A stretch of 33,289 nt of DNA from a virus: the IMG/VR virus record IMGVR_UViG_3300025128_000178, positions 1 to 33,289 of that record. The stretch is one strand, 5' to 3'. The position numbers and the translations under genes are program-made. Each line of letters begins with the position of its first letter. The stretch's first letter is position 1. Below, in pieces: positions 2-32,779 of the stretch. Below the pieces are notes generated by a model that made no database searches, had not been told where the DNA came from, and saw only the letters and a list, made by a program, of their open reading frames with translations.

Positions 2-343
2 ACCGAAGAAGATCACGAACTAGGTCATAGTAATAGTGGTCATGAAATCACAGAAGCACAATGCGAGGTCATCTGCAAAAGATTAACCGAAGCATTAGAC
101 AACGGAGAAACGGAAGAATATAAAAAGAGTTATTACAACTTTATTAATAATCTTCCTCTTGTTAAGTGCGACACTTGTGAGGGAGTAGGAGAACGAAACG
201 ATCAATACGTTCAAGGAGAATGTAACGCTTGTCATGGTAAAGGAGAACGTAAGGACTTTGCAACACATTACCCTTTTGAGATAAAGAACGTTGAAGAATT
301 TAGGAACTTCATCAGAGAATCAGGAGGATTCGCAATCAGCTAG
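2..343 (+). CDS. Partial gene: protein with two DnaJ-like CxxCxGxG zinc motifs
   Basis: The reading frame is open from the window edge to TAG at 341-343, so the 5' end is missing (113 codons visible). It holds CDTCEGVG and, 17 residues later, CNACHGKG, the paired CxxCxGxG motifs of the DnaJ central zinc-finger domain. No J-domain HPD motif is seen in the visible part. The residues before the motifs are acidic and probably helical. It could be a free-standing phage zinc protein or the tail of a larger one; DnaJ-type zinc domains have been reported in marine podovirus proteins. A strong terminator follows 20 nt downstream, so this is the last gene of a plus-strand transcript. The zinc motif is clear; the function is unknown. 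Confidence 0.75.
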   Translation, partial: TEEDHELGHSNSGHEITEAQCEVICKRLTEALDNGETEEYKKSYYNFINNLPLVKCDTCEGVGERNDQYVQGECNACHGKGERKDFATHYPFEIKNVEEFRNFIRESGGFAIS

Positions 344-363
344 AACACTTCTCCTATAGTGGG

Positions 364-398
364 AAAGGACGGAAGCTCCCAGCTTCCGTCCTTTTTTT
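364..398. terminator. Strong bidirectional rho-independent terminator
   Basis: A perfect 14-bp stem (364-377 with 381-394) with a CCC loop runs into seven T's at 392-398. On the opposite strand the stem is followed by TTTCCC. It sits between the end of the plus-strand gene at 343 and the minus-strand nuclease gene ending at 708, so it can stop both convergent transcripts. Confidence 0.9.
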
Positions 399-449
399 GT
401 GTTTGGTGTTAGTGTTCGTATTGGTATTAGGCCCATGTCCGTCCCGGCC

Positions 450-473
450 AGCTCTGGACTCCTGAGCAGAGCT
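450..473. repeat. Hairpin AGCTCTG/CAGAGCT
   Basis: Perfect 7-bp arms (450-456 and 467-473) with a 10-nt loop, inside the first copy of the tandem repeat. Confidence 0.6.
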
Positions 474-492
474 AACAAGCAAGCAAGCCCCC

Positions 493-515
493 AAACCCTT
501 ATCCCATAAGGGTTT
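493..515. repeat. Hairpin AAACCCTTAT-CCC-ATAAGGGTTT
   Basis: Perfect 10-bp arms with a 3-nt loop. The right arm is part of ATAAGGGTTTCCG (506-518), whose reverse complement recurs at 6002-6014 in the other gene-free region. Confidence 0.7.
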
Positions 516-585
516 CCGACCGACCAACTGCTGTGTTTTAACTACCAGCTTCCATCCCGGGCTGGACCCAGAGCAAACAAGCAAG

Positions 586-638
586 CAAGCAAGCAAGCTG
601 AAACCCTTGTAGTATAAGCGTTTCAGCTTGCTTGCTTG
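586..638. repeat. Long hairpin with perfect 19-bp arms built from AAGC units
   Basis: Arms at 586-604 and 620-638 are exact reverse complements (AAGC units followed by CTGAAAC) around a 15-nt loop. It sits between tandem repeat copies 2 and 3. No T-run follows, so it is not a typical terminator. A small GGGC-GAA-GCCC hairpin (644-654) follows. Confidence 0.8.
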
Positions 639-707
639 GGCGAGGGCGAAGCCCGAGCCAGTACCATCCCGGTTGCTGGACCCAGAGCAAACAAGCAAGC
701 AAGCAAG

Positions 708-1136
708 CTACCCAGTCAATTGTTCCTTCGTCCTATCTCTAACGAGAAAGGTCAAATGACTTTGGACGAAGGACCAATTGACTGGGCTAGAGAGAGAAAG
801 GGGAGAAAGAGAGAGACCTTGTTCAGAGAGATCTCTTACTTGGTCAGAGGAATAAATATAAATGTCATATTTTCTTGGACTACTCTCCAAGACCCTCTTG
901 ACCAAGATAAAAGCAGGGGAGTTTTTACGTTCTTCATGGTAGGCAATTTGGTGAGGAGACATATTAACTCTATTACTTTTTGTTACCTTCAATTCAACAG
1001 TAAAGTAAATACCCTCTTTGGTAGTGCCTAAAACATCTGGTATGCCGTGATTAACCCGTGATTCCAAGCGAATCCAAGAAAACTCCGTCAAGTTTTTTCG
1101 TACTTGTTGCCAAAACAATTTTTCAGGTTGTGCCAC
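708..1136 (-). CDS. VRR-NUC/Holliday-junction-resolvase-like PD-(D/E)XK nuclease
   Basis: 142 aa. The core has G-I-P-D-V (about residues 30-35) followed by V-E-L-K-V (about 47-51), the PD...ExK active site of small VRR-NUC/HJR-type nucleases. Such enzymes cut branched or flap DNA; a role in phage recombination or genome processing is inferred. The start is GTG at 1136, since no in-frame ATG lies near and homologous-looking sequence begins at once; there is no clear Shine-Dalgarno, and TATAAT lies about 12 nt upstream, so the message may be nearly leaderless. The last 40 residues are low complexity (Ser/Leu-rich) and end inside a 23-bp inverted repeat (711-786), so the C-terminus looks like a recent add-on. 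It is the only minus-strand gene in the early region. Confidence 0.75.
   Translation of the reverse strand: MAQPEKLFWQQVRKNLTEFSWIRLESRVNHGIPDVLGTTKEGIYFTVELKVTKSNRVNMSPHQIAYHEERKNSPAFILVKRVLESSPRKYDIYIYSSDQVRDLSEQGLSLSPLSLSSPVNWSFVQSHLTFLVRDRTKEQLTG
711..786. repeat. Inverted repeat with 23-bp arms inside the nuclease 3' end
   Basis: Arms 711-733 and 764-786 match at 22 of 23 positions (CCCAGTCAATTG ... CAATTGACTGGG), with a 30-nt loop. It lies within the coding sequence of the minus-strand nuclease, just before its stop codon at 708-710, and directly abuts the AAGC repeat block. Confidence 0.85.
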
Positions 1137-1231
1137 AGTAAAAATATTATACTTTATTGGTAGAAATGAGTTGTATTTATGGGATATTTATTATAAGGTG
1201 GGTATGTAATTTATTAACAAAAGGAACAATT
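1137..1231. promoter_or_regulatory. Divergent promoter region between nuclease and early operon
   Basis: Both first genes point away from this 95-bp AT-rich gap. On the minus strand TATAAT lies about 12 nt before the GTG start. On the plus strand TATACT lies at about 1151-1156. No good -35 boxes are seen, so the assignment rests on position and the -10-like hexamers. Confidence 0.4.
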
Positions 1232-3570: not shown

Positions 3571-3785
3571 TGGGTAAAGAATATTTAATAAGGAAACATA
3601 AACAACATTTCAAGCATTTAACTTGGAATGAGTTTATTACATGTGAAAAGTTAGAGTTAATTCATGTGGCACTACAAGAGCTACAACAGGAATTTACTAT
3701 TTCTGATACTAACTCACATTTAGAAGATGCTCTTAAATTTACAGAAGATTTAAGAGAAAAGTATTTGATTAAGGAGAAAAGCTAA
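3570..3785 (+). CDS. Small early protein ending in EKS
   Basis: 71 aa, mainly helical and charged, not recognised. It starts within one copy of the repeated junction (3558-3572) and ends with the next (3773-3787), so its stop overlaps the following ATG by one base. Confidence 0.6.
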   Translation: MGKEYLIRKHKQHFKHLTWNEFITCEKLELIHVALQELQQEFTISDTNSHLEDALKFTEDLREKYLIKEKS

Positions 3786-3937
3786 TGGAAGATTTTGTAC
3801 TAGATATACAAATTAATGTGAACGATACTGATGAAGATACACACATTAAAACTTTAACTGCGTCTGTGCTTAAAGATGAAACTTTAATAATGGTTATGGA
3901 AGATGTTGCAAAACATTTAAACGAGGAGAAAAGCTAA
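3785..3937 (+). CDS. Very small acidic early protein ending in EKS
   Basis: 50 aa, acidic (MEDFVLDIQINVNDTDEDT at the start). It starts within junction copy 3773-3787 and ends with copy 3925-3939 (C-terminus NEEKS). Beta-strand-like N-terminal half, helical C-terminal half. Not recognised. Confidence 0.55.
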   Translation: MEDFVLDIQINVNDTDEDTHIKTLTASVLKDETLIMVMEDVAKHLNEEKS

Positions 3938-4134
3938 TGGCTAAATTAAAAATAGGTTGGTGCGAAATATCAGTAGACATAGACGGAGAAAAAGAAACTT
4001 GGCTAGGAAATATAAGAAAAGTAGGTCAAGAAGAAAGTGTGGTTGAAGTTCCGCGTTGGGACGAAGATACCGAAACAGAAACTATAGAAACTTATGACAT
4101 ACCTAACAACTGCATGACTCAGGAGAAAAGCTAA
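3937..4134 (+). CDS. Small acidic early protein ending in EKS
   Basis: 65 aa, starting within junction copy 3925-3939 and ending with copy 4122-4136 (C-terminus TQEKS). The sequence alternates hydrophobic and charged residues (a small beta sheet is likely) with an acidic D-E-D-T-E-T-E-T stretch. Not recognised. Confidence 0.6.
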   Translation: MAKLKIGWCEISVDIDGEKETWLGNIRKVGQEESVVEVPRWDEDTETETIETYDIPNNCMTQEKS

Positions 4135-4367
4135 TGGCTAAAGATTTATTTATGGACTTGTGGGAAAGGACTACGAATATGTTTGGTGGTCAACAAGAGA
4201 TAGACTCAAAGATACTTAAACGCAAGGTTAAGTATTATGTAGTTCCTAAAAAAGATGGTATTCCCATTATTAGAATACACGAAGATGAAGATGAAATTTT
4301 TAACGACCGAAAATTGCATAAGCGAGTAGTAGGAGAGATAATTAACAAAATAACAGAGGAGTTATAA
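4134..4367 (+). CDS. Small early protein, unknown
   Basis: 77 aa, starting in the last junction copy (4122-4136). It contains a basic patch (KILKRKVKYYVV) followed by an acidic EDEDE patch. The stop TAA at 4365-4367 is directly followed by the next ATG, with GAGGAG upstream. Not recognised. Confidence 0.6.
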   Translation: MAKDLFMDLWERTTNMFGGQQEIDSKILKRKVKYYVVPKKDGIPIIRIHEDEDEIFNDRKLHKRVVGEIINKITEEL

Positions 4368-4514
4368 ATGGCTAGTGAATATATTTTAGATAAACTTAGT
4401 GGTGAATACGTTTTAGTTTGTTCTGATTCAAGCAGACCAACAATACGTTTAGGCACAGATGATTTGGCAACGGCTAAAGCTAGAGCCAAACCACACATGA
4501 ATTTCAATGACTGA
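4368..4514 (+). CDS. Very small early protein, unknown
   Basis: 48 aa (MASEYILDKLSGEYVLVCSD at the start). RBS GAGGAG lies 7 nt before ATG 4368. It ends TGA 4512-4514, overlapping the next gene by 8 nt. Not recognised; supported by RBS and operon packing. Confidence 0.5.
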   Translation: MASEYILDKLSGEYVLVCSDSSRPTIRLGTDDLATAKARAKPHMNFND

Positions 4515-4761
4515 GTTATATAAAGACAAGTTTCCTTGTCACCCTACGTTTCAAATTGATTTGTCCCGGAACAAAACAATAGATTGGACTTTAAAAATGG
4601 TTCCTCCTGAATCTATCTATTGGAAAACCGGGAAGATTAAAAAGAAAGAAATAAGAATTCTATCTAAGGTTACGCCAGATGAACGTAAAGAATTCACTGA
4701 TGAGATCTTTTTAGATATATACCCCCCAATAATTAAACAACAAAAGGTAAGACAACTATGA
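4507..4761 (+). CDS. Small early protein, unknown
   Basis: 84 aa, starting MTELYKDKFPCHPTF and with a basic middle (KTGKIKKKEIRI). It overlaps both neighbours by a few bases (start inside the previous gene, stop 4 nt into the next). Not recognised. Confidence 0.6.
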   Translation: MTELYKDKFPCHPTFQIDLSRNKTIDWTLKMVPPESIYWKTGKIKKKEIRILSKVTPDERKEFTDEIFLDIYPPIIKQQKVRQL

Positions 4762-5093
4762 TTAGACAAATAGCTTATTTAGATAAGCCACAAGCAAAAG
4801 CAGTAATTCAATTATTTAAAAGAAGTCAGCTACAGGATCTGGCCGTCTTTTTAAGTATTGATAGTAAGAATAATAAAGGCCCCTATAAATTATGTTTAGA
4901 TTGCCCACAAGATTCACACCCACGAATCAATGCAAAAATACAAGACGTAGCTGACACGCTAACCGATGATGACAAGCAAGCTATATTAAGTATTGATTGG
5001 CAGATGTATGATGATGCAGAAATACTTACAGAACAAATAGGAATGACCCCAGACTACAAAGAATACGTTGAAGAACAAGAGAGGAATCAATGA
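4758..5093 (+). CDS. Early protein, unknown
   Basis: 111 aa, starting in an ATGA overlap. An N-terminal helical part (PQAKAVIQLFKRSQ) precedes a C-L-D-C pair at about residues 51-54 and an acidic helical tail. Not recognised. It is coupled to the next gene by another 4-nt overlap. Confidence 0.65.
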   Translation: MIRQIAYLDKPQAKAVIQLFKRSQLQDLAVFLSIDSKNNKGPYKLCLDCPQDSHPRINAKIQDVADTLTDDDKQAILSIDWQMYDDAEILTEQIGMTPDYKEYVEEQERNQ

Positions 5094-5338
5094 CTGAGTA
5101 CACAGACAGAGTAAGGCAAACTAAGTTTAAACTAGATGCTGAGAAATGGGGTAGAGGTATCAACTACTATCATTTTAATGACGGAGTTAGAGAAATTCGT
5201 TACAACAACGGAATATCTAAATTTGAAAATATCCACACCGGGCTAAAATGGACGACCTATCCAAAAAATCATGAGGAATCTATTTACGATAAATTCAAAA
5301 AACTTTTAGCAGACATTAGATTTAAAACTACTGATTAA
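5090..5338 (+). CDS. Last gene of the early operon, unknown
   Basis: 82 aa, starting in an ATGA overlap behind GAGAGGAA. Rich in aromatic and basic residues (KWGRGINYYHFNDGVREIRY), which suits a small beta-sheet domain. Its 3' end overlaps the convergent terminase small-subunit gene by 11 bp, with no terminator between. Not recognised. Confidence 0.65.
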   Translation: MTEYTDRVRQTKFKLDAEKWGRGINYYHFNDGVREIRYNNGISKFENIHTGLKWTTYPKNHEESIYDKFKKLLADIRFKTTD

Positions 5339-7853: not shown

Positions 7854-9917
7854 TCATATTATTCCTTTCAATATATGTGCGATAACTTCTATCGTCCACC
7901 CGTTACCCAACATCTTGTATCTTTGTGTGTTGCTAACGTGGTTCGTATAGTTGTCTGGTACCGTTTGAAGACGCTCGCATTCTAAAGGAGTTAATTTACG
8001 CCAATGTAAATTTTCTACATCTTCTGTTATTTTTGGACTATCTGACCTAGCAAGAACTGTTGGTGATTTACCATTAGTTTCATACACTCTTCGTTGTCTT
8101 TCATTATCTTTTAATTCTTCTCTTGAAATATCAAAAGCTTTGTTGGGTTTTTTAGAGGTACCAACGTTTGTCCTATCTGCAAAAGAAGCAGTTAGTGCAT
8201 GACTCTTTCCTTCTTCATGAAATACTCTGTCTTGCATGTAAGGTTGTTTCCCACTAGCTTTCTTACTTGGATTGATTTGATTAGGTTTAGTTGAAACCAC
8301 TATACTATCTTTCTGCACGGTAGTTAAAGCATTTGATTTATCGTCGTCCCTTGTCTCTAGTTGTTGAGTCCATGAATCATCGTCGCTTACTTGTCGACCT
8401 CTTAATGCTCCGCCCTTAACTCCGTCAGGTAATCTTTCTATCTCCAAGATATGAGACTTGGTTAAAGAAGTAGTCAGCGTATTCATCTTGCCGTCTTCTC
8501 TTGGTACCATTTCTTTTCCACCTCTTGGTGACCAATCCTTCCCGGTCCTTTGTCGGTGTTCCTTCCTTATTCGTTTACTTTCCTCAGTCCTTTGTTCAGT
8601 TAAAGCCCTAACCATTACTTTAGGTTCTCTGTGTCCACCTTGACAGGTAGTCAACGTAGGTGATTTACCATCTTCTGAGTAAACTCTTTTTAAACTATCG
8701 TGACCTTTTATGTCTACCGCCGTCCCAACTCTTTTAGGTTTAGTCTCAATCAATTGTTCTTTATTACTAGCCGTAATGGTAGGAGACTTGCCTTCTTCTG
8801 AGTAAACTCTTTGCGTGCTTTCATACACACCATCTCTGTAGATAAACTCCATGATCTGAGCATCAAAAGAATCATCTTTAATATCAAGAACTTCTTTTAA
8901 TTTAAACCAAATGTCATCACTAGGTATTGCAAAGCTACTGTCCGTTCTAAACCAATGTTCTACTTTAGTAATAGGTAGATCCGTTTCTTCAGCGATTTGC
9001 TTATTGGTCTTTTTAACATTAGCTTTTGCTTTTCTTAACAATTGTTGTAGCTTTTCTAGGTCTACTTCGTGTTTCCTAACTTTAACTTCTTCAACGGCCA
9101 TACCTACTTTAATAGGTTTCATTGGAACTAAAGTCATGCCGTTGTTCCCAGCACCTTTATACATAGTCGCAGTCATACATAGAGACTTCTCGTCAGGCAT
9201 TTTAAGGTGTCTGCGATTACGTTCTGTGTGTTTGACTGGTTTATGTTGCTCAATGTAGCTACCGTCCGTTGGTTCTTTATGATAACCAGCAATGACCGTA
9301 CCGATTTTTTCTGAATCTTCATTGTAAAAGTAGCCTTTACCTCTTTTAGCGTTAAGCACTCTATCTACTTTAGCTTCTGATATATCGTACTTCTCATCAG
9401 GTTCGGTTTCTAAAATATCTCTAAGCACAATGCCTCTATCTTCAGGTTGTTCTACTCCGGGTATATTAGTCCAATAGTATCTCAATCTGTTTTGTGCGCT
9501 AACTAAAGCACTATTTATTAAGATAGGTTCGACTCCAACTTGTTCTGAGATGACATCTAAGAATTCTTTCTTCATCTTTACGTTCTCTAAAAGAAAGTAT
9601 TTAGGCTTTACCTCTTTTAAGATCCTGACGAACTCAAAAAACAACGCAGAACGTGGGTCATCAAAAGCCAATTGATTGCCTGCAAAAGAAAATCCTTGGC
9701 ATGGAGATCCTGCAAGTACAAGATCTATGTCTGGGTAGTCCTCTCCTTTAACATCACAAACATCTCCTATCTGGATAATGTCTGGATAGTTAGCTGAAGA
9801 GACTTGAATAGCGTATTTGTCTATTTCAGAAGCATAATATTTGTCGACCTTAATTCCTAGACGGTCAAGAGCAAGTCGACCACAACTCATTCCGTCAAAT
9901 AAACTTAATATATTCAT
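7854..9917 (-). CDS. C5-cytosine DNA methyltransferase with expanded repeat-cassette recognition region
   Basis: 687 aa, much longer than a normal Dcm-type enzyme (350-450). Motif I is FDGMSCG (7-13), motif IV GSPCQGFS with catalytic Cys73, motif VI ENV (111-113), motif VIII QNRLRYYW (142-149), and the C-terminal motifs IX-X include TPLECERLQTVP (643-654) and GNG (671-673). The enzyme methylates cytosine C5 using S-adenosylmethionine. Between VIII and IX lie about 490 residues with eight copies of a R-V-Y-x-E-x-G-K-S-P-T-x-T-A-like cassette (near 197, 240, 370, 411, 472, 524, 564, 610) and an inserted helix-turn-helix (about 300-345, TNKQIAEETDLPITKVEHWF). A conventional enzyme has about one such cassette. 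No restriction enzyme is nearby, so protection of phage DNA is likely. Confidence 0.9.
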   Translation of the reverse strand: MNILSLFDGMSCGRLALDRLGIKVDKYYASEIDKYAIQVSSANYPDIIQIGDVCDVKGEDYPDIDLVLAGSPCQGFSFAGNQLAFDDPRSALFFEFVRILKEVKPKYFLLENVKMKKEFLDVISEQVGVEPILINSALVSAQNRLRYYWTNIPGVEQPEDRGIVLRDILETEPDEKYDISEAKVDRVLNAKRGKGYFYNEDSEKIGTVIAGYHKEPTDGSYIEQHKPVKHTERNRRHLKMPDEKSLCMTATMYKGAGNNGMTLVPMKPIKVGMAVEEVKVRKHEVDLEKLQQLLRKAKANVKKTNKQIAEETDLPITKVEHWFRTDSSFAIPSDDIWFKLKEVLDIKDDSFDAQIMEFIYRDGVYESTQRVYSEEGKSPTITASNKEQLIETKPKRVGTAVDIKGHDSLKRVYSEDGKSPTLTTCQGGHREPKVMVRALTEQRTEESKRIRKEHRQRTGKDWSPRGGKEMVPREDGKMNTLTTSLTKSHILEIERLPDGVKGGALRGRQVSDDDSWTQQLETRDDDKSNALTTVQKDSIVVSTKPNQINPSKKASGKQPYMQDRVFHEEGKSHALTASFADRTNVGTSKKPNKAFDISREELKDNERQRRVYETNGKSPTVLARSDSPKITEDVENLHWRKLTPLECERLQTVPDNYTNHVSNTQRYKMLGNGWTIEVIAHILKGII

Positions 9918-14357: not shown

Positions 14358-16610
14358 TTATATATCTGGTTGTAAGTTTATCATGTCTCCAAGGCTATTC
14401 AAATTGACTTTAGCCAATTGATAAAAGGCCTCAGTATTATCAGATATAACAGAATCAGCATATATAGCTCTAGGTTCGTACCAAGTATCTTGCGTAGGTA
14501 ATTGTATTTCTCTGTACGCATCAAACCCTACGACGTAACCTAGATAAGCTACTAAAGTTGATTGGTCTCCATATTCTCCTGTTTCTTGTTGTTCCGTTTC
14601 AGCTTGTTCTTGTTGTGCTTCTATGTTTTGGGCTACTATTTGTTCAGCTATTTGATCTGCTTCACTAGCTGTCATAACTCCTGATACTGCTGTATCTATT
14701 TCACCTTGCATGTCTTGAACTTGAACATCTGCCATAGCTACTTGAGGTGTACCGTCAACATCGGGCAAAACATTTATTGTTATTGTTGTCCCCCCAGATG
14801 TGCCTGTATCTGAACTCATAGACAATATTTGTTGTGTTTGTGCAGAAGCAGAAGCGAATTGGTCGGATAAACTAGGAGAACTTGTTGTACTTACGCCCCC
14901 AGTTGATGACATAGATGCACCAGATGAACTGCTTGTAACCGTAGAAACATTAGATCCTCCACTAGACCCCCCAGAGTATATTGAACTATTTCCCCCTACA
15001 GAATTTGCACTAGAAGAATAACTATTTCTAGCTGTTTGCATTGTCCCGGCAACAACATCTAAAGCAGATATTCTTACTGAACTTCTTTGTTCTCCTACTT
15101 CTTCTTCGTTTTCGGCGAAGACTTCTTCGATTTCGTTTTCGGACTCAATTTCTTCTTCGATGCTTTCTTCGGTTTCGGCAAGAAGCTCTTCACGACTTTC
15201 TGTAATCTCGAAGACTTCATCAGTTTCTTGAATTTCGTCCATCGTTTCTTCAAACCACTCTTCCAAGTCTTCAATAGACTCGAACTCTTCAATCCTTTCT
15301 TCTTCATTTTCTAGTTCCTCTCTAATTATTGTTTCAAATTCAAATATATCTATAAGTTCATCGGTTCTAATTATATCTAAAACAGCCAACGGCTCATCAA
15401 TACGTTCAAATATTACATACTCTTCTTCAATTATATTAAAATCAGGAAGTGGATCAACATCGCCGATACTATATTCTTCAAATAACATTTCTTCTTCCTC
15501 CCACCCAAATATGTCATCACCACCAAAAGTTATTAATATTTCTTCATATTCTTCTTCATACCCAACGTAGTTAAACTCTTCAAATGGCTCTTCAAACCAT
15601 TCTTCTTCCATATAGTAATCATCGTAGTTTGTTTCTTCTCCATAACCATAATCAAATTCTTCTTCAATGTAATATGCTACTGAAGCTTCTTGTGTATAAC
15701 CCGCACAAAACGGAGCATACTGTGGATCTTCATTACATTGTTGGTCATCGTAAGCTTCCCAATATAAAGGACATGAGGTGCTGTGCAACGAATCTAATCC
15801 ACATTGTTGAGCTAAATATGCAGCAGCGTACCCAGAACAACTTGAACTATTTAAAGGGTCGCTACAGTCAACTGCATTACCTGAACCTTCTCCATATAAA
15901 CTGCCACCATTTTCTAACAATGTATTAAATGAAGTATTATTAAAATTAGTATTTACACATGTGCCAGCAACATTAGTTGTACCTGTGCTACATTCATCGT
16001 GAAAAAGGTACGTATAGATCTCTGTCGCGCTTCCTTGTTCTCCTATTAATACGTCATGGTTAGTTATATTCAACCCACCATATCTATATTCAAACGTATC
16101 ATTAGTCCAAAGTATAACTTCAAAACTATTGTCAGTATTATTACGGCCATACTCTTTCATGTTGTACCAACCAAAAACAGACTTATCAGTAAAATTTTTA
16201 GCTAACATTTTTGAACCGTTATCTCTAATTAAGTCAGTCCAAAAAGGATATAAAGTATAAGTGGTATGAGGTAACGGATCAGGTGTGTAGTCACCACAAT
16301 AGTTATTATAATTTACATTTCCTGTACCTAAACCAAAATGTAGACATCCATTAGTGGCCATCCTTGCAGATGTAAAATCTTCTCCGTATAAAGTAAAAGT
16401 AAAATCTAAATTAAAAGCCCCTGCTAATTGGTCATCGCCAGTATTAAAATTAGTTGTCCCGGTAAGATTAGTTAAATTAAAAAGATCTTGATTAGCTTCG
16501 TATATATACTCAGCTTTTAGTTGATTAACCCCTAATGCAAATAGCCCTGATAAAAGTAAACTACTTATAAAACACCATATATTAGCTTTAGTAGTTATTA
16601 AACTCTTCAT
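14358..16610 (-). CDS. Secreted NIDO-like protein with large acidic and serine-rich regions
   Basis: 750 aa. N-terminal signal peptide or anchor (NIWCFISSLLLSGLFALG, about 9-27). Residues about 40-200 resemble a NIDO (nidogen-type) extracellular domain: F-T-L-Y-G, then A-T-N-G-C-L-H-F-G, P-L-P-H-T, L-Y-P-F-W-T-D-L. Cys pairs in 205-305 suggest disulfides. Residues about 310-510 are an extreme acidic low-complexity run of E, D, F and Y. A Ser/Gly/Thr-rich part follows (about 520-620), and the C-terminus has TQDTWYEPRAIYADSVISDN, a pattern I have seen in marine phage proteins. It may be an adhesin or a surface protein rather than a virion part. The start overlaps the upstream gene by 23 nt. Confidence 0.65.
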   Translation of the reverse strand: MKSLITTKANIWCFISSLLLSGLFALGVNQLKAEYIYEANQDLFNLTNLTGTTNFNTGDDQLAGAFNLDFTFTLYGEDFTSARMATNGCLHFGLGTGNVNYNNYCGDYTPDPLPHTTYTLYPFWTDLIRDNGSKMLAKNFTDKSVFGWYNMKEYGRNNTDNSFEVILWTNDTFEYRYGGLNITNHDVLIGEQGSATEIYTYLFHDECSTGTTNVAGTCVNTNFNNTSFNTLLENGGSLYGEGSGNAVDCSDPLNSSSCSGYAAAYLAQQCGLDSLHSTSCPLYWEAYDDQQCNEDPQYAPFCAGYTQEASVAYYIEEEFDYGYGEETNYDDYYMEEEWFEEPFEEFNYVGYEEEYEEILITFGGDDIFGWEEEEMLFEEYSIGDVDPLPDFNIIEEEYVIFERIDEPLAVLDIIRTDELIDIFEFETIIREELENEEERIEEFESIEDLEEWFEETMDEIQETDEVFEITESREELLAETEESIEEEIESENEIEEVFAENEEEVGEQRSSVRISALDVVAGTMQTARNSYSSSANSVGGNSSIYSGGSSGGSNVSTVTSSSSGASMSSTGGVSTTSSPSLSDQFASASAQTQQILSMSSDTGTSGGTTITINVLPDVDGTPQVAMADVQVQDMQGEIDTAVSGVMTASEADQIAEQIVAQNIEAQQEQAETEQQETGEYGDQSTLVAYLGYVVGFDAYREIQLPTQDTWYEPRAIYADSVISDNTEAFYQLAKVNLNSLGDMINLQPDI

Positions 16611-17649
16611 TACAAGTACGCTTTGACTTCCATTTTCCGCTTTCTCCCCTAGTGTTTTTACACTGTTTCATGAATTCACTTTTATATTGTTTAGCGTCTG
16701 GTCTTTTAGAAGGGTTTTCTTTCCAATATTTACTGGCTTCTTTACCTATCTTTCCATACGCTGGACAAGGAGTGCCTGCCATTTCCATTGCTTGAAAAAC
16801 ACGGGAGTCTTGGCAAAGGATACCTACTGAAGCAACTTTCATCCCAGTATCATATAAATATTTAGACAACTTTAATCTTTCACAATTCTCATCTCTTACA
16901 GTTCTACCTGTTGAAATACCAAATACTTGCCCTTGAAAGGCTCCAGATCTACCAACAGTACACAAGTCCTGACTATAACTCATGATTGAAGGAGCTATAG
17001 CAGAAGCTGGTGGGGCTTCGGTTTTAATATTTTGGTTAATAGTTTGCTCTGATTTACTTTCATTTATATTTCTATTTGTGTTGTCAGACGTAGTATTACT
17101 TTCATTAATGTTAGTGTTTTTATTATCAGTAGTTACGTTTGACTCAGATGTGGATTGGTTAATATTCGTATTGTTGTTTGTATTGTTATTCGTGTTTGTA
17201 TTATTAGACGTACTTGTAGAAGTATTAGTGTTGTTTGTTGTGGTTGTATTAGTGACGTTTTGATCCACACTTGAATTAACTGTACTTGTAGAAGTATTTA
17301 CATTCGTGTTGGTACTGTTATTAGTATTAGTAGCCGTACTCGTATTTACGTTCGTGTTCGTATTATTGTTCGTGTTCGTATTGGTATTTGTATTGGTATT
17401 TGTATTGGTATTTGTATTGGTATTCGTGTTCGTACTGGTATTTGTATTAGTGTTTGTATTAGTATTTGTATTGGTATTAGTGTTCGTATTGGTATTTGTA
17501 TTGGTATTGTTCGTAGTTGTAGTGTTAGTTGTTTCTAAACTATTCTGCTCACAATACTGTTCCCCAGCTGTACAGTCACCTGTTTGGTCTCCATAAGTTG
17601 TACTAAGGAATAGAACTCCTAAAGCCATTAGTAATAGTTTTTTGTGCAT
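16588..17649 (-). CDS. Secreted protein with Asn-Thr repeat and conserved C-terminal domain
   Basis: 353 aa from ATG 17649 (GGAG 9 nt upstream); the frame extends five codons further but lacks an RBS there. A signal peptide (KKLLLMALGVLFLSTTYG) comes first. Residues about 40-210 are a low-complexity Asn-Thr dipeptide tract, almost exclusively N, T and S, coded by near-identical 6-bp units. The C-terminal 140 residues form a folded domain with six Cys (IMSYSQDLCTVGRSGA ... RDENCERLKLSKYL ... AMEMAGTPCP), a pattern recurring in marine phage proteins. Likely a surface or tail-associated protein; the Asn-Thr tract may be a length-variable linker. Confidence 0.7.
   Translation of the reverse strand: MHKKLLLMALGVLFLSTTYGDQTGDCTAGEQYCEQNSLETTNTTTTNNTNTNTNTNTNTNTNTNTNTNTNTSTNTNTNTNTNTNTNTNTNTNTNNNTNTNVNTSTATNTNNSTNTNVNTSTSTVNSSVDQNVTNTTTTNNTNTSTSTSNNTNTNNNTNNNTNINQSTSESNVTTDNKNTNINESNTTSDNTNRNINESKSEQTINQNIKTEAPPASAIAPSIMSYSQDLCTVGRSGAFQGQVFGISTGRTVRDENCERLKLSKYLYDTGMKVASVGILCQDSRVFQAMEMAGTPCPAYGKIGKEASKYWKENPSKRPDAKQYKSEFMKQCKNTRGESGKWKSKRTCNEEFNNY
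17015..17530 (-). repeat. Coding low-complexity Asn-Thr repeat tract
   Basis: Units of AAT/AAC and ACT/ACC/ACG codons; on the plus strand it reads as repeats of GTATTGGTATTT. The most regular part is 17370-17510. Exact repetition would allow slippage and change of length. A 19-nt piece of it also occurs at 410-428. Confidence 0.85.
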
Positions 17650-17688
17650 TGGCTGTCTCCGCAATAGCCGTTTTATTTTTTATAAAAT

Positions 17689-17702
17689 CAATCTATAGAT
17701 TG
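17689..17702. promoter_or_regulatory. 14-bp perfect palindrome upstream of secreted Asn-Thr protein
   Basis: CAATCTATAGATTG lies 40 nt upstream of ATG 17649 in an AT-rich gap; a possible minus-strand -10 (TATAAA) follows. It could be an operator. Confidence 0.45.
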
Positions 17703-17751
17703 TAATATTTCTTGGGCTTTAGGTATAGAGAAAGAAACTATTTTTACTAAT

Positions 17752-18030
17752 TTAATGTCTTTTAATAGAGGGCAAAGGAATAATTTCGCCAAATTGAGTA
17801 GTATAGGCTTCTGTAGTGTCCAATAAAAAAGCTAAAAAATTAACTAATACTCTTTTGTCCATATCATTTTGAACAGCAATATTAGAAACTAAAATAGTTA
17901 AAGCCGTAGTTACTTCCCAAGGTGTTAGTTCTTCGGTAACTTCTTCTAAGATAGGATAAATTTCACTTACTAAATTAGCTATTGCAGACTCTACTTCACT
18001 TTGTTTTAGATAATCATCAAAAGAAGACAT
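17752..18030 (-). CDS. Small helical protein, unknown
   Basis: 92 aa, mainly helical with Leu/Ile/Val-rich segments (LTPWEVTTALTILVSN) but no clear transmembrane helix, and an acidic N-terminus. A TATAAT hexamer lies about 7-12 nt upstream of ATG 18030 and no clear Shine-Dalgarno is seen. It is in a row with the helicase gene 14 nt upstream. Not recognised. Confidence 0.6.
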   Translation of the reverse strand: MSSFDDYLKQSEVESAIANLVSEIYPILEEVTEELTPWEVTTALTILVSNIAVQNDMDKRVLVNFLAFLLDTTEAYTTQFGEIIPLPSIKRH

Positions 18031-26562: not shown

Positions 26563-27279
26563 ATGAAACATAAAATATTGTACGAGTCTCCGTACGAATA
26601 TGGCGTGTTCTCTAGCGAAGACCGACGTAGCGGTCGATTCTATGATTGCAATGGACAGAAACTTCCCTCTGTTACTACTATATTATCCGGGACTAAAGAA
26701 GGAGACTTCTTAAAGAAATGGATTGATAAAGTAGGTGAAGAAGAAGCTGAGCGTATCAGAACAGAAGCTGCGACCAGAGGTTCCTACATGCACGATATTC
26801 TAGAGAAGCAACTCGTTAATGGTGACATTTGGGATTTCAAACCCAGAAACGCTGAGGAAAAGAGAGCATATAAAATGGCCTGTACGATCATGGACCAAGG
26901 GTTGCCCAATGTTTCTCAAGTATATGGTTGCGAAATATCGCTTTACTATCCTGACAAATACGCTGGCAAAGCAGATGTTATTGGAGTGCATGACGGAGAT
27001 CTATCTATTATGGATTTTAAACAAACCAATAAACCTAAACGTAGGCAATGGGTTTGGGATTACTTCCAACAGTTAGCTGCTTATTCATTAGCGCACAACG
27101 AACTGTATGGCACAGACATACAGAAAGGAGTAATTATGATGTGCTCAGTTGATTGCTTATACCAAGAGTTTATCCTTGAAGGAGATGAATTTAAGAGAGC
27201 TGCTGATGCTTGGCTAGAGCGTGTAGAAAGGTTTAGTTTGCCAAATCCCGAAGACCAAGATTCTCCTCAAGATTCCTAG
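26563..27279 (+). CDS. PD-(D/E)XK exonuclease, Cas4/RecB-like
   Basis: 238 aa. R-G-S-Y-M-H-D-I-L-E (about 71-80), Y-A-G-K-A-D-V-I-G (132-140) and S-I-M-D-F-K-Q-T (about 148-155) give the conserved H, D and DxK of the Cas4/RecB-type nuclease core; Y-F-Q-Q-L-A-A-Y (about 167-174) is the matching QxxxY motif. Phage relatives act in recombination and processing of DNA ends. The start is two bases after the RHH-like stop with weak AAGG upstream. The last 47 bp overlap the 3' end of the convergent 1848-aa gene. No four-Cys Fe-S cluster is seen. Confidence 0.85.
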   Translation: MKHKILYESPYEYGVFSSEDRRSGRFYDCNGQKLPSVTTILSGTKEGDFLKKWIDKVGEEEAERIRTEAATRGSYMHDILEKQLVNGDIWDFKPRNAEEKRAYKMACTIMDQGLPNVSQVYGCEISLYYPDKYAGKADVIGVHDGDLSIMDFKQTNKPKRRQWVWDYFQQLAAYSLAHNELYGTDIQKGVIMMCSVDCLYQEFILEGDEFKRAADAWLERVERFSLPNPEDQDSPQDS

Positions 27280-30200
27280 ATAACTCTTTATTCCCTGTTA
27301 AAGAAATTTCTTTGTCTTCTATTAAGTCATACATGTCGTCTAATTCATCTTCAGGCCATTCCCTTTGAAGGTCTTGCTTTTCTGCTTTAGCTTCAAAATT
27401 TTCTTGTGTTTTTGACGGAACAGGCCAAGCAGTAAAAATACCTTCTTCAATGTTATCAATAAAATCTTTTCCTGCACCTGTTCTTTGAACGAATCTTTTT
27501 ATAGCTTCTTCATATACATCTTCATTTACGCCCCATGCTTTTAATGCCTGTGTCTCAAAATATAAATCTTGCTGTATTCTAAACCAAGAACGCTGTGCAT
27601 CCTGCCAATCTTTTATTACATCTTCTTTTGTTAGTTCTTCACCAGAAAGATACTCTCTGCTTAAATTAGGTTTGGTCAGTTCTTCAAACTCATTTATTCT
27701 GTTTCCTATAATAAAGCCCATAGACCTATCTGGATTTATTTCCGAACTTGAAAAACCCATTAGTTTTGCTGCGGCTCTTATAAAAGGCATTGTTTTACCG
27801 TAACGATCATATTGTGCATCGTCTTCTCGCAGTGACCAAATTACATCACTAGCTTGTCTATAGACACCCGGACCAGCTTTGTCAAAACCGTATGCTATTC
27901 CATCCAAAAACTGATCCCATAAGTCATCATCTTCATTCCAAATTGGTTTTATGTTTAAAGGGTTGTCGTCGTTTTGATTACTCATTATATCGGCAGCTAC
28001 TTTCCAAGAAATACTTTCTTGTGTGTATGCTTCAATGTATTCAATAATAAATTGCCCCATTGCTCTGCTTATAGCTTCTGGGTCTCCTTGACCTCTATTT
28101 TCTCTAAGAGTCCCTCCTATAACGCTGTATAATTTTCCTATCGATTCATAAGGAAAGAAATAATTAACGTTTAAGTAAGGAGTATCTCTTTCTTTTTCTG
28201 GGAGATCAGTGTCAGTTTTTTCTCCTAAATAAATTAATCTATCTCTATCTTGATAAGGAGCAATAAGTTCATTAGCAGCATAAGTGTCATCATCATCTAT
28301 ATTAAAAAGTATTTGACTTGCTTTAGCTAAACCAGCAACAAGTCCATGCACCGCTACGTACCCACCAATAGCTCTTTGCGTTGCTCTATTTACAAATGGT
28401 TTTTCTGGTAACTGCACGCCTTCAACTGCGGCTCTTGCTTGTATATCTGGAGATGGCGTATATGTGCCCATTCTGTAAACTAATTGAGCAGAGTTAACCG
28501 TTGTTCTTGCTATTTCTGTGGGAAAAGCAACGAAGTTACCTCTTGGTAACACTTTACTCCACTCAGCAAATTTACCTACATAGTCATAATTAGGCATTGT
28601 GTTCCTTACCATATAAGCTGCTACATGATCTATGTATTTATCTAGGTCAGTTACGTTTCTTAAAACTGTGCCTTGGTCTTGTACATAACTAGAAAGTTTT
28701 TCTGTAATACCGCTTTTTGTTTTTAACGTTTTAGCAAAGTCTCTTAACACTCTTAATTTTAAGTCATCAGAACCTTTTATCTCATCTATCATGTCTTTAA
28801 ACTTTCGTCTTTCAGACAAGAAAGCAAGTATCTTAAAAAAATCGTCTGACGCAGCGTAGGCTCGTCTTGCTCCTCGATTAATACTTAATACATAATCATC
28901 AAATGCTTTACCCGGACCTGTTTGCCCTAAGCCGTACAAAAGATTAACTATTTTATCGAGCGTATCAATTTTAAGTGGAGATCTTGCAATACGAGTAAAA
29001 ACACCTAAAGCATCGTTAGCTCGAACCTCTGTATTTACAATACCAAGTTCTTGCAAATAAGACCAAGCCGAATCGAACTCCTCAACATTACCCGATACTT
29101 CTTCTGTTTCAGGGTCATACCGCACGTTACCAAATAAATCATTCCCAATTAATTGAAGCGCTTCTTGTATATCGGCTTCTTTGTTAAATATATTTATGCC
29201 TCTAAAGTGCCCGTTAAAACCATACATAATTGCAGCACCATATAAGTTTCTCATTTGTGTGCCAGGACTAAGAACAATTATTCCATACTGCACTAAAGCT
29301 TTTGGCATGCCAATTGTTCTTGCAAGAGTGTTTAATATAACAGCTTCTTCTTTTATAGCACTTCCTCCAGACAAAGCTTCCGCCATTGTTCTGGTAGTCC
29401 ACAAACCTTCTAAGGGATTAAAATCATCTCCTGTTTCTATCTTAATTGTATATCCAGGTGTTTTTTCTGGAGAAAACCATTGTTCCCCTGGCATTTCACT
29501 TAATCTTTTAACTTCATAGAAAAAAGTAGCATTTTCTATAGACCTAGCCAATCTAGCAAAAGACGTTGCAGCAATAAGTTCAGGTTCTTTTATTTCCCCT
29601 AACAATTGTCTAACCGCATAAGGTATTTCTCCACGTTGAGTTAAAAGTTGATTGATCTTAATATCTGCTTTTTCTCCTTTTTGTTCTCCTTTTAACAAAG
29701 CAGCTAATTTTGAAACGTCATTAGCACTTTGATACATAGATCTTTCTATCCATTCATTAACTGCTTCTTCTGCCTTTTCTTTTCTTATTTCAAGCGCTCT
29801 TTCTTCAAGTTGTTCTTGGGTAGCGTTAGATCCTAATTCTTGTCTAGCATTTGACCTATAGTCTGGCATTCTATTTCTAAATTTGTACTCCATCGAAGTT
29901 ACAGCTCTTTCATAAAGTGCTGTCATAGGTTGACTTGAAGAAGTAACTTTAGCCCCTACTTGATTTGCAAGTTTTGAAGGCAAGTTTTTTATGGCCTCAA
30001 TATACATTTGGCCTTGTGGGTTCCAACCTAAATTGGGAGAAAAGAATTTATAAGATCTTGTCACATAAGTATTTAAGTTGTGCTCTATTACGGCTCTTAA
30101 ATCTGGATCTAAACTTTCTGCCGGGAGTTCATTTAACATTCTTTTACTCAGTGCATCAATACCTCTTCTTATTTTAAGGGCTGGTTTTCGTAAAGAATCA

Positions 30201-32779
30201 GGTAACTGTCTTGCAGCCACAGGTGTTTTTTGTATATCTGCTAATTGACTTTCTATAAATTCTATCTGATCGTTTATTTGGTTTAAGTCATATTGATCTA
30301 ACTCATCTCTTTTTTCTATCTTTTGTGTTTCAAGTTTAGACAGCTGTTGTTCAGCAGCTCTACGTTCTTCAGCAGTTAATTCTATACGTGCCCCAGTTTG
30401 TTGAAGAAAAGCCATAATTAATTTGTCTGCTTCAGCTTTAGTTTTTACGTCGCCATTTCTAACTGCTTCGGCAATAGCTTGCTCCATCTCTAAGCCTAAT
30501 TTTTGAGCTCTTGTTTCTAATGCTCTAATTCTACTTTCTCTTTGACGAGCTCTATTTCCTATTAATGAACCTGTTGGCATTAACGGTCTCATGTATCTGT
30601 CCCAATACTTAGTTATTCCTTTGGTTTGAAATTGAGGAGATCTACCTACAGGCATTTCTATGGAAATTAATCTTGGGTTTTGATAGTACAATTGTATAGT
30701 GCTTCCATCTAAAACTTCAGATATTGTTTTATTGAAAAAAGGACTATCTAAGGAAACTTCAACACCATCTACTTTAAATACAGAAAGTTCACTGTTACGT
30801 TTAGCCGTTTGTTCAGCTAAACTCATGCCTTCTTCTATACCTTGTCTTTCAAATCCTATTGTTTGTGTATTTCCGTCTGGAAGTTCTACCACTACTTCTG
30901 CTCTTAATGCTTCCCCTTCTGGGCGTAAAATTTCTTCATATTGAGGAGTCATAACAAAAGGAACTGGTTTGCCGTCTTCATCAAAAGATACTTGCGTAAG
31001 ATCTATAGTCCTACTTCTGTTGGAGGTATCTCTTATTTGTCTTTGTAAGTCAACAATAGTTTGTTGTTCCGCTAAAGCAAAAGCAAGTTCAGATTGGGAC
31101 ATACGGTCTATTTTTTCTGGACTTGTGTAAGGAACTCCTTCTTTAACAGCTACTCTTAATTCTTCTAAAGTGTAGTTTTCCTCTATATCTTTTACATGAT
31201 CTCTAAACTCATTTTTACCTAACTTCCATGCAGCTCCGTGATGCTCTCTAAATAAAAGATTTGCACCTGCGTTTGCTATTGCAACACGTTCTTCTTCTCT
31301 ATTTTCTGAAACATCATTTGGGTCGAAACTATACTCCCCTTGCCTCGCTGCCCATCTTTCATAGGCTTCAGGTGTACCAAACTCTTTTAGAATGTGAGCG
31401 TCTAACTCTTCATTCGTCATTGCATCAAGAATAGCTTTTTGTTCGTTGTAAATTCTTTCAGGGTTAAAACCAGAAAGAACCGTGTCCATCATATAGTCTC
31501 TAATTACTACGTCTTGGTTTTTCGCACGAACTGCTCCTACAATTTTTTCTAGTAAAGATTCTCTATTTTCCCCCGGTATCACTGGACCAAACTCGAAATC
31601 ATTATTTGCCTCCATAATTTCTCTAAGTTCGTTAGCGTCTAAATCTTCTATGTTTTTTGCGTAAGGTAGTCCTTTGTCCTCCGCCCATTTTTCAACTAGA
31701 GTTGTTAACTCAGCAGTTGTTAAAGTTTCTGCTTTTTCATCATTTGCACTACGTTCTTCTTCTGTGAACTGTTTTTGAAAATCATTAAACGTAGGAGCAG
31801 CAAGTCTCCCAGTTGTTGCAAATATCGTCCCTTCTCCAATTGCTTCTCCCACGATACTGGTAGCTAGTCCAGTTGTAATATCTAAATTAGGGTCTATATT
31901 ATTTTTGACCATAAGGTTCTGTGTAACTGTGTCCACTCCACCTATGCCACCTTGTAATATAGCCTGTGTTATATAGTGTTTAATTACAGATTTACCAATA
32001 CCAAGCATACCAGCAGGTACACTTGCTGCGTTTATGATCGCACTTATACCTGATTTCTTTAAAGCGTATCTGTCTGCTCCTTCTTCATCATCGGGGTATT
32101 TTTCTAAATATTCGTAGTAAGCATCACCATAACTTTGTGCAAAAACCACAGCACCTCCGCCAATAGCTGCTGCCGTTATACTAGCTATGGGGTTACCTGT
32201 AGCCATAAATGTGGCTCCTCCCGCAGCACCTGCCCCCGCTAAAAATGGAGCTGAGCCCGGTATAACTTCACCGATGGTTGCTGCCCACCATTCTGGATCA
32301 TTAAGATTTTTAAATTGCTCCCATCCTTCTTGTCCGTATTTCGCCTGATAAGCTGCCTCACTGGCTTGTTGTTCATTTAAGTCAGCTCTTTCTCTAAGTT
32401 CTTTAGCGTAATCGTCATGTCCTCTCTCTTCTTGTGCACGGGCTCTAGTCTCTTGAAAATCACCAATAGTTGCTTGTGTAGATCCGTACAGACTGTCAAA
32501 AAATCTATCACTAAATAAAGCTGCTCTTACAGGTAAAGGAAGTAATCCAGTAAAATCTTTTGAAGGTGGTGGACCCCACAAAGAAGTTTCGGTCTCTTCA
32601 GTAGGAACTGTAGGTGTTCCCCCAGTAGTTGGTAAAAGACCAAGTTTTTGTTTCTCTTCTTCTGTAAGAGGTGTTAAAGAAGTTTCGGTTTCTTCAGTGG
32701 GAACTGTAGTAAGTTCTTCAGTCGTTGGTGTAAGACTAAGTTTTTGTTTATCCTCTTCTGTAAGTGGTTCTAAAGGCAT
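27233..32779 (-). CDS. 1848-aa giant virion-type protein
   Basis: N-terminus has a 32-aa tandem repeat (residues 5-36 and 37-68, PLTEEDKQKL... and PLTEEEKQKL...). Residues about 175-215 and 245-290 are Gly/Ala-rich hydrophobic segments like those of phage DNA-ejection proteins, e.g. VIPGSAPFLAGAGAAGGAT. The rest is long, charged and helical with no catalytic motif I can identify (no clear transglycosylase or protease motif). In podoviruses such very large internal or core proteins sit downstream of tail/internal virion genes and are ejected into the host. It begins 3 nt after the previous gene. Named as virion from size, style and context only; a large polyvalent protein family is likely. Confidence 0.65.
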   Translation of the reverse strand: MPLEPLTEEDKQKLSLTPTTEELTTVPTEETETSLTPLTEEEKQKLGLLPTTGGTPTVPTEETETSLWGPPPSKDFTGLLPLPVRAALFSDRFFDSLYGSTQATIGDFQETRARAQEERGHDDYAKELRERADLNEQQASEAAYQAKYGQEGWEQFKNLNDPEWWAATIGEVIPGSAPFLAGAGAAGGATFMATGNPIASITAAAIGGGAVVFAQSYGDAYYEYLEKYPDDEEGADRYALKKSGISAIINAASVPAGMLGIGKSVIKHYITQAILQGGIGGVDTVTQNLMVKNNIDPNLDITTGLATSIVGEAIGEGTIFATTGRLAAPTFNDFQKQFTEEERSANDEKAETLTTAELTTLVEKWAEDKGLPYAKNIEDLDANELREIMEANNDFEFGPVIPGENRESLLEKIVGAVRAKNQDVVIRDYMMDTVLSGFNPERIYNEQKAILDAMTNEELDAHILKEFGTPEAYERWAARQGEYSFDPNDVSENREEERVAIANAGANLLFREHHGAAWKLGKNEFRDHVKDIEENYTLEELRVAVKEGVPYTSPEKIDRMSQSELAFALAEQQTIVDLQRQIRDTSNRSRTIDLTQVSFDEDGKPVPFVMTPQYEEILRPEGEALRAEVVVELPDGNTQTIGFERQGIEEGMSLAEQTAKRNSELSVFKVDGVEVSLDSPFFNKTISEVLDGSTIQLYYQNPRLISIEMPVGRSPQFQTKGITKYWDRYMRPLMPTGSLIGNRARQRESRIRALETRAQKLGLEMEQAIAEAVRNGDVKTKAEADKLIMAFLQQTGARIELTAEERRAAEQQLSKLETQKIEKRDELDQYDLNQINDQIEFIESQLADIQKTPVAARQLPDSLRKPALKIRRGIDALSKRMLNELPAESLDPDLRAVIEHNLNTYVTRSYKFFSPNLGWNPQGQMYIEAIKNLPSKLANQVGAKVTSSSQPMTALYERAVTSMEYKFRNRMPDYRSNARQELGSNATQEQLEERALEIRKEKAEEAVNEWIERSMYQSANDVSKLAALLKGEQKGEKADIKINQLLTQRGEIPYAVRQLLGEIKEPELIAATSFARLARSIENATFFYEVKRLSEMPGEQWFSPEKTPGYTIKIETGDDFNPLEGLWTTRTMAEALSGGSAIKEEAVILNTLARTIGMPKALVQYGIIVLSPGTQMRNLYGAAIMYGFNGHFRGINIFNKEADIQEALQLIGNDLFGNVRYDPETEEVSGNVEEFDSAWSYLQELGIVNTEVRANDALGVFTRIARSPLKIDTLDKIVNLLYGLGQTGPGKAFDDYVLSINRGARRAYAASDDFFKILAFLSERRKFKDMIDEIKGSDDLKLRVLRDFAKTLKTKSGITEKLSSYVQDQGTVLRNVTDLDKYIDHVAAYMVRNTMPNYDYVGKFAEWSKVLPRGNFVAFPTEIARTTVNSAQLVYRMGTYTPSPDIQARAAVEGVQLPEKPFVNRATQRAIGGYVAVHGLVAGLAKASQILFNIDDDDTYAANELIAPYQDRDRLIYLGEKTDTDLPEKERDTPYLNVNYFFPYESIGKLYSVIGGTLRENRGQGDPEAISRAMGQFIIEYIEAYTQESISWKVAADIMSNQNDDNPLNIKPIWNEDDDLWDQFLDGIAYGFDKAGPGVYRQASDVIWSLREDDAQYDRYGKTMPFIRAAAKLMGFSSSEINPDRSMGFIIGNRINEFEELTKPNLSREYLSGEELTKEDVIKDWQDAQRSWFRIQQDLYFETQALKAWGVNEDVYEEAIKRFVQRTGAGKDFIDNIEEGIFTAWPVPSKTQENFEAKAEKQDLQREWPEDELDDMYDLIEDKEISLTGNKELSRNLEENLGLRDLAN
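32576..32767 (-). repeat. Tandem 96-bp coding repeat at the giant gene start
   Basis: Two 32-codon units (residues 5-36 and 37-68) share PLTEE-D/E-KQKL and TVPTEETETSL. The duplication is in frame. Confidence 0.85.

Follow-up and report, generated by a model that had tools for sequence, protein, structure and literature searches.

The DNA analyzed here (the window) is a 33,289-base virus record from IMG/VR that covers part of the genome of a relative of the HTVC023P/Pam3-type podophages, with matches to HTVC027P, 023Pt_psg01, and DSL-LC04 in the DNA polymerase, primase, helicases, DNA-end-protecting protein, and small terminase subunit. HTVC023P-type phages are widespread in the ocean and, to our knowledge, their acquisition of accessory genes is poorly understood. 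The stretch 344-707, gene-free as originally predicted, lies between convergent genes, namely a plus-strand gene for a Cys-rich protein, which ends at 343, and a minus-strand nuclease gene, whose stop codon is at 708-710. Genes of the Cys-rich family also flank the cluster in most relatives, in either orientation. The features of the locus are collected in Table 1, and two of them, the hairpin at 711-786 and the terminator hairpin at 361-397, had been overlooked in the original prediction.

Table 1. Features in and around the repeat array, with positions in the window.
Positions	Strand	Feature
2-343	+	Cys-rich (DnaJ zinc-finger-like) gene, 3' part
361-397	+	Intrinsic terminator of the plus-strand gene; perfect 14-bp hairpin with T-run
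409-428		20-nt exact copy of window 17477-17496, in the (Asn-Thr)n repeat of gene 16588-17664
441-492	-	Block 1, divergent copy; 7-bp hairpin at 450-473; GCTTGCTTGCTTG run at 476-488 on the minus strand
493-516	-	Stem-loop AAACCCTTATGGGATAAGGGTTT, 10-bp perfect arms (493-515), before the motif of block 1
523-539	-	17-nt exact match AAAACACAGCAGTTGGT to a tail-fibre repeat (N-T-A-V-G codons) of relative G005
561-594	-	Block 2, 34-nt repeat; minus strand reads GCTTGCTTGCTTGCTTG-TTTGCTCTGGGTCCAGC
586-638		Stem-loop with AAGC.../...GCTT arms; 26-nt arms, 92% complementary
638-659		G+C-rich mini-hairpin around GGGCGAAGCCC; module adjoins the stem-loop in many copies
675-708	-	Block 3, 34-nt repeat, immediately at the nuclease stop codon
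708-1136	-	Nuclease, 142 aa, VRR-Nuc/Hjc Holliday-junction-resolvase-like
711-786	-	23-bp stem with 30-nt loop, within the last nuclease codons; largest hairpin
1171-1201	+	Early-type promoter TTGTAT-TTATGGGATATTTAT-TATAAG of the next gene

The three related blocks that had been predicted at 441-708 are real. The repeat search found three copies, at 459-492, 561-594, and 675-708 (start-to-start spacing 102 and 114), and copies 2 and 3 were identical over 34 nt, exactly as had been stated, while copy 1 was 65% alike; TRF did not report the array when run on the window. Of the three hairpins described as perfect, those at 450-473 and 493-515 are so, but the third, at 586-638, is not. On the minus strand each unit has the order hairpin, (GCTT)n, T-rich tail, and G+C-rich spacer. 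Read along the nuclease strand, the cluster begins with the 23-bp stem, the stop codon, (GCTT)4G-TTTGCTCTGG, and a G+C-rich spacer, continues with the AAGC/GCTT-arm stem-loop, (GCTT)5G-TTTGCTCTGG, a spacer, and stem-loop AAACCCTTATGGGATAAGGGTTT, and, after (GCTT)3G-TTAGCTCTG and another spacer, reaches the terminator that belongs to the opposite gene. The unusual composition was also borne out, the array having a G+C content of 51-52% compared with 33-41% in 2-kb bins. The region folded far better than its shuffles both as DNA (z -10.2) and as RNA (z -6.6), and none of 100 shuffles was as good in either. The suggestion of a dedicated, Rfam-type structured RNA found no support, because the Rfam search of the region returned nothing but eukaryotic miRNA hairpins, which fell far short of the gathering score. 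A protein-coding reading of the whole array was ruled out, since the units, which are 47-128 nt long, do not come in multiples of three.

The neighbouring nuclease resembles Hjc and VRR-Nuc enzymes. The motif residues of its putative PD-(D/E)XK core, E25, GIPD34, E48-L-K50, and Q63, were invariant in 11 members. The Hjc profile matched 10 of the 11 members weakly (best E 0.0012; the first member fell short of the curated cut-off), the sequence of the VRR-Nuc structure 4QBN matched weakly as well, and the top Foldseek matches of the nuclease model (pLDDT 74) were archaeal Hjc and VRR_NUC, with E about 1e-3 and TM about 0.4. Prokaryotic VRR-Nuc enzymes cleave four-way junctions (PMC4103454). That this nuclease acts on the adjacent stem-loops is a conjecture.

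A nuclease search of IMG/VR gave 66 related loci, mostly on metagenome contigs, in which ORFs were called by a simple script. The 56 loci that were scored comprised 28 with a hairpin at the 3' end of the gene plus the motif, 19 in which one or more perfect DnaA boxes precede the motif, and 9 with neither hairpin nor motif, whereas a hairpin without the motif was seen in none of the 56. The unit of the family is GCTTGCTTG, followed by a T-rich tail and then by a G+C-rich spacer; it is usually preceded by a stem-loop, which varies in sequence, and the copy number of GCTTGCTTG elements among relatives ranged from 1 to 16. In the larger contigs the motif occurred essentially only between terS and terL, concentrated from the nuclease to TerL and in one main orientation; the few copies elsewhere include coding ones, and about 0.4-0.9 per record are expected by chance. 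The confinement of copies between terS and terL disfavours the genome-wide mobile repeat that had been among the original suggestions. The motif GCTTGCTTGTYTGTTCTGAC was found in 52 IMG/VR stretches, one of them (L112) only 1.3 kb long, and nearly all of those with enough flank carried TerL, the nuclease, the Cys-rich gene, or TerS of the same phage group. Blastn of the region against isolate phages returned nothing relevant, and the single match in bacterial and archaeal genomes, on a MAG contig outside the phage group, was taken as chance. The element was seen only in HTVC023P/Pam3-like podophages. Since nine relatives are without it, one of them with a nuclease 92% identical to that of the window, the element is dispensable or replaceable. 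In L054-L074 (for example, L063 5390-5436), the hairpin gives way to perfect DnaA boxes, two to three of which directly surround the point where the nuclease gene ends. In phage 023Pt_psg01 (L099) an unannotated nuclease gene (15018-15394) is followed by GCTTGCTTG, and repeated GGGCCCACCC-type islands occupy the spaces up to TerL (15400-17860), which suggests that this cluster could be an older, diverged form. The 84,189-base contig with L089 and L090 probably joins two phage genomes, because primase, helicase, and end-protecting genes are present at both of its ends.

The original prediction had staked its case on conservation and structure in relatives, and both hold strongly, by the family search and by covariation. 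In relatives, 96.8% of the cells of the nuclease hairpin corresponding to 711-786 were paired, and 11 of its 23 pairs had changed on both sides. Cells changed on both sides numbered 80, compared with 29 in shuffles and at most 8 when the partners were slid by 1-3 columns; these counts are not of independent events, the sequences being related, and several different arms occur. Both arms are coding, yet the 3' arm covaries with the 5' arm, and in the alignment the C-terminal residues of the nuclease vary along with the hairpin arm. Other stems of the cluster covary too (CCCTTG/CAAGGG, CCTCTG/CAGAGG, and CCTTTG/CAAAGG, with further variants ACAACGACT, ACAACGGCT, and CTCACC), as do the arms of the counterparts of 586-638, and in L014 the loop of the latter stem is exactly inverted. 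Judged from these alignments, the stem structure appears to be selected or actively maintained. As a test for RNA versus DNA, G-U pairs were counted, and the 7 G-U against 8 other mismatches, in related sequences, gave no clear G-U excess.

We also analyzed the transcription context of the elements. Relatives with several copies, such as L040, have small leftward genes with their own promoters and terminators, and there the element follows one gene's terminator and precedes the next gene's promoter. Of the 30 copies listed from relatives, 12 have a TATGGGA...TATAAT promoter-like sequence adjoining the stem-loop on one side, and about as many of the listed copies have a GGCGAGCGAAGCGAGCC mini-hairpin on this promoter side. 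The opposite tail is T-rich (6.5 T in 12 versus 1.8). The TATGGGATA core of the 1171-1201 promoter also adjoins the stem-loop in many copies in relatives. Between the units of the window's own array, three units between convergent genes, no promoter was found, and in terminator scoring of this array no stem scored; the T-runs after many stems are interrupted.

Gene content and orientation from the nuclease to TerL differ among relatives. In L011, L013, L006, and L137 a 232-bp piece lies between two GCTTGCTTG runs, while L007 and L014, which are otherwise alike, have a single merged GCTTGCTTG run in its place. The piece encodes a complete 64-aa protein, whose ribosome-binding site adjoins the repeat. 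In a second subclade several array units have been gained or lost likewise at GCTTGCTTG, and the spacers change fast among otherwise near-identical genomes. The originally proposed recombination site is therefore supported by gain and loss of units and of a gene exactly at GCTTGCTTG, and is partly shown; gain and loss alone do not prove a role in shuffling, because deletion between direct repeats needs no special function. The 3643-5117 part of L006 is an inverted duplication of about 670 bp, about 90% identical and centred on an AAGC/GCTT hairpin, which may be a natural rearrangement or a chimeric assembly.

The arrays also contain short gene pieces of 17-21 nt that match repetitive genes of the phages themselves or, in some cases, the nuclease gene. 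The array of L059 holds 21 nt of the nuclease gene, and there are also N-T-A-V-G-type codons that match tail-fibre repeats in G018 and G005, among them the 17 nt in the window (Table 1). Array segments reached 32 bits in 7 of 80 cases, compared with 0 of 240 shuffled segments. The 20-nt match at 409-428 exceeded the longest found in 200 array shuffles (17 nt), but about 9% of random window pieces also reach at least 19 nt, so that it is suggestive only of a captured fragment of the window's own gene at 16588-17664. A CRISPR-like array of repeats and captured fragments was ruled out, the repeats being inconstant beyond about 20 nt and most inserts having no match.

The region is thus real and is conserved in a group of ocean phages; a recombination role is partly shown, and we infer a transcription role. 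Among the functions first listed (origin, structured RNA, packaging or recombination site, mobile repeat), a recombination role found direct support, the genome-wide mobile repeat was disfavoured, and a dedicated RNA family was unsupported. We tentatively favour the explanation that the elements are stem-loop linkers resembling PeSLs, which separate small gene cassettes in a hypervariable region from terS to terL and serve as transcription boundaries and as recombination points. The stem-loops would form the ends or boundaries of transcripts, the direct repeats together with the stem-loops would be the points of recombination at which cassettes are shuffled, and the adjacent Holliday-junction-resolvase-like nuclease would possibly act on these structures. 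Linker elements with recombination explain why the motif is confined to a hypervariable stretch, why stems covary and are coupled to promoters, why gains and losses fall at the repeat, and why the element is dispensable.

PeSLs (promoter early stem-loops) have been reported in T4-type phages (PMC4503421, PMC3950731). PeSLs are described there as stem-loops that are coupled to early-type promoters, are dense in a hypervariable region, separate small genes, and carry signs of gene gain and loss at the element. In the present cluster the stem-loop likewise is intergenic and separates small genes where the genome is hypervariable, and breakpoints fall at GCTTGCTTG, with one gain or loss of a whole gene and several of units. 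The cluster differs in its phage family, that of HTVC023P/Pam3-like podophages, and in having, besides the stem-loops, GCTTGCTTG runs, a G+C-rich spacer, and inserted gene fragments; it also has its promoter and T-rich tail on opposite sides of the stem, with many copies promoterless. The haloarchaeal virus HGTV-1 has a conserved promoter-like motif and an inverted repeat before many small genes, which its authors likened to PeSLs (PMC3950731); it differs from the cluster in belonging to an archaeal tailed virus and in its TATA-box-like promoter, and it is not known to carry a GCTTGCTTG array. The PeSL idea, known from T4-type phages and one archaeal virus, would here extend to a third phage lineage. 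A lineage-specific, structurally conserved element at which units and a gene come and go would give a testable handle on cassette shuffling.

The main rival, which we consider unlikely though it has some chance of being right, is that the array is the phage replication origin, with iteron-like direct repeats (GCTTGCTTGTYTGTTC) beside DnaA boxes, or beside a priming hairpin where boxes are missing. It holds this place because 19 relatives have perfect DnaA boxes where others have the hairpin and because diverged direct repeats occur without GCTTGCTTG. Close to their first repeat, all 19 scored members of one subclade have at least one perfect box (TGTGGATAA/TTATCCACA) and no hairpin, scanning of 60 kb in G018 gave only two further TTATCCACA sites, and short A-poor direct repeats come after the nuclease stop even where GCTTGCTTG is lacking, for instance in L020 (AGCTTGCTTCTATTGTTC) and L015 (GCTTGTT). 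That hairpin and DnaA boxes interchange at one fixed position was unexpected. The likeness to iteron and DnaA-box origins, direct repeats beside boxes, is limited to that subclade, however, and no DnaA box cluster was found in the window's clade or in isolates HTVC027P and DSL-LC04. The copies are also scattered between small genes along as much as 3 kb, and the repeat spacing of 53-115 bp is wide for iterons. GC skew was rejected as evidence of an origin, since cumulative skew tracks gene orientation; at four-fold sites it was flat in G005 and G001, with no replichore switch at the array.

It is improbable, in our judgement, that the array is a packaging initiation site (pac or cos) recognized by the small terminase subunit, although its place between the two terminase genes, ahead of the late genes and mainly on one strand, would suit such a site. 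Many contigs end within a few hundred bp of the nuclease stop, but these ends differ in place, as expected from assembly breaks at repeats and not from a fixed terminus, and contig ends were ruled out as genome termini because those near the array do not coincide. The nine relatives without the element also speak against packaging, as do promoter-coupled copies up to 3 kb away, which would be unexpected of pac.

A role in RNA only, with no part in recombination, seems quite improbable; the elements would then terminate transcripts of the nuclease and its neighbours in a strand-specific way, or provide RNase sites at their 3' ends. Such a role would suit the overlap of the hairpin with the end of the nuclease gene and the order of stem and T-rich tail in the sense direction, as in L021 and L033. 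It does not account for why only the stretch before TerL is affected in a genome with many transcription units; the leftward genes of L040 have separate canonical terminators, tandem units with fast-changing spacers are unnecessary for termination, and G-U pairs showed no clear excess.

A small MITE-like mobile hairpin element, mobilized by the adjacent nuclease, is very unlikely, since, despite that structure-specific nuclease, the joint absence of hairpin and motif in relatives, and the loop inversion between the window and L014, copies are not dispersed across the genome or shared with other phages or with hosts, neither a target-site duplication nor constant ends were seen, and relatives without the element retain the nuclease.

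Beyond the PeSL-like linkers, integrons offer a further comparison. Integron attC sites are inverted repeats that flank cassettes, their structure being kept and their centre variable. The attC core GTTRRRY, read by eye, is not the repeated unit of the cluster, so the likeness is a resemblance only, and no integrase was identified near the cluster. We regard as very doubtful an integrase-less, integron-like phage platform in which the nuclease, at the head of the cluster, would act on cruciform-forming stem-loops and on the GCTTGCTTG repeats that follow them, and would thereby insert, delete, and invert small gene cassettes and gene fragments before the late operon.

Several other features were observed in the window. 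The minus-strand gene at 16588-17664 is predicted to encode a protein of 358 aa, the N-terminus of which is signal-like and which contains a long (Asn-Thr)n tract. Two 96-bp tandem copies with 83% matches (32580-32775) lie at the N-terminal end of the 1848-aa gene at 27233-32779. A 99-aa SET-domain protein (Pfam PF00856, E 1e-12) is encoded in this phage at 2305-2604 on the plus strand. On the minus strand, 7854-9917 encodes a 687-aa C5 DNA methyltransferase, the middle part of which has several degenerate RVYxExGKSPTLTA-type repeats, resembling in its predicted sequence an enzyme with several target-recognition modules.
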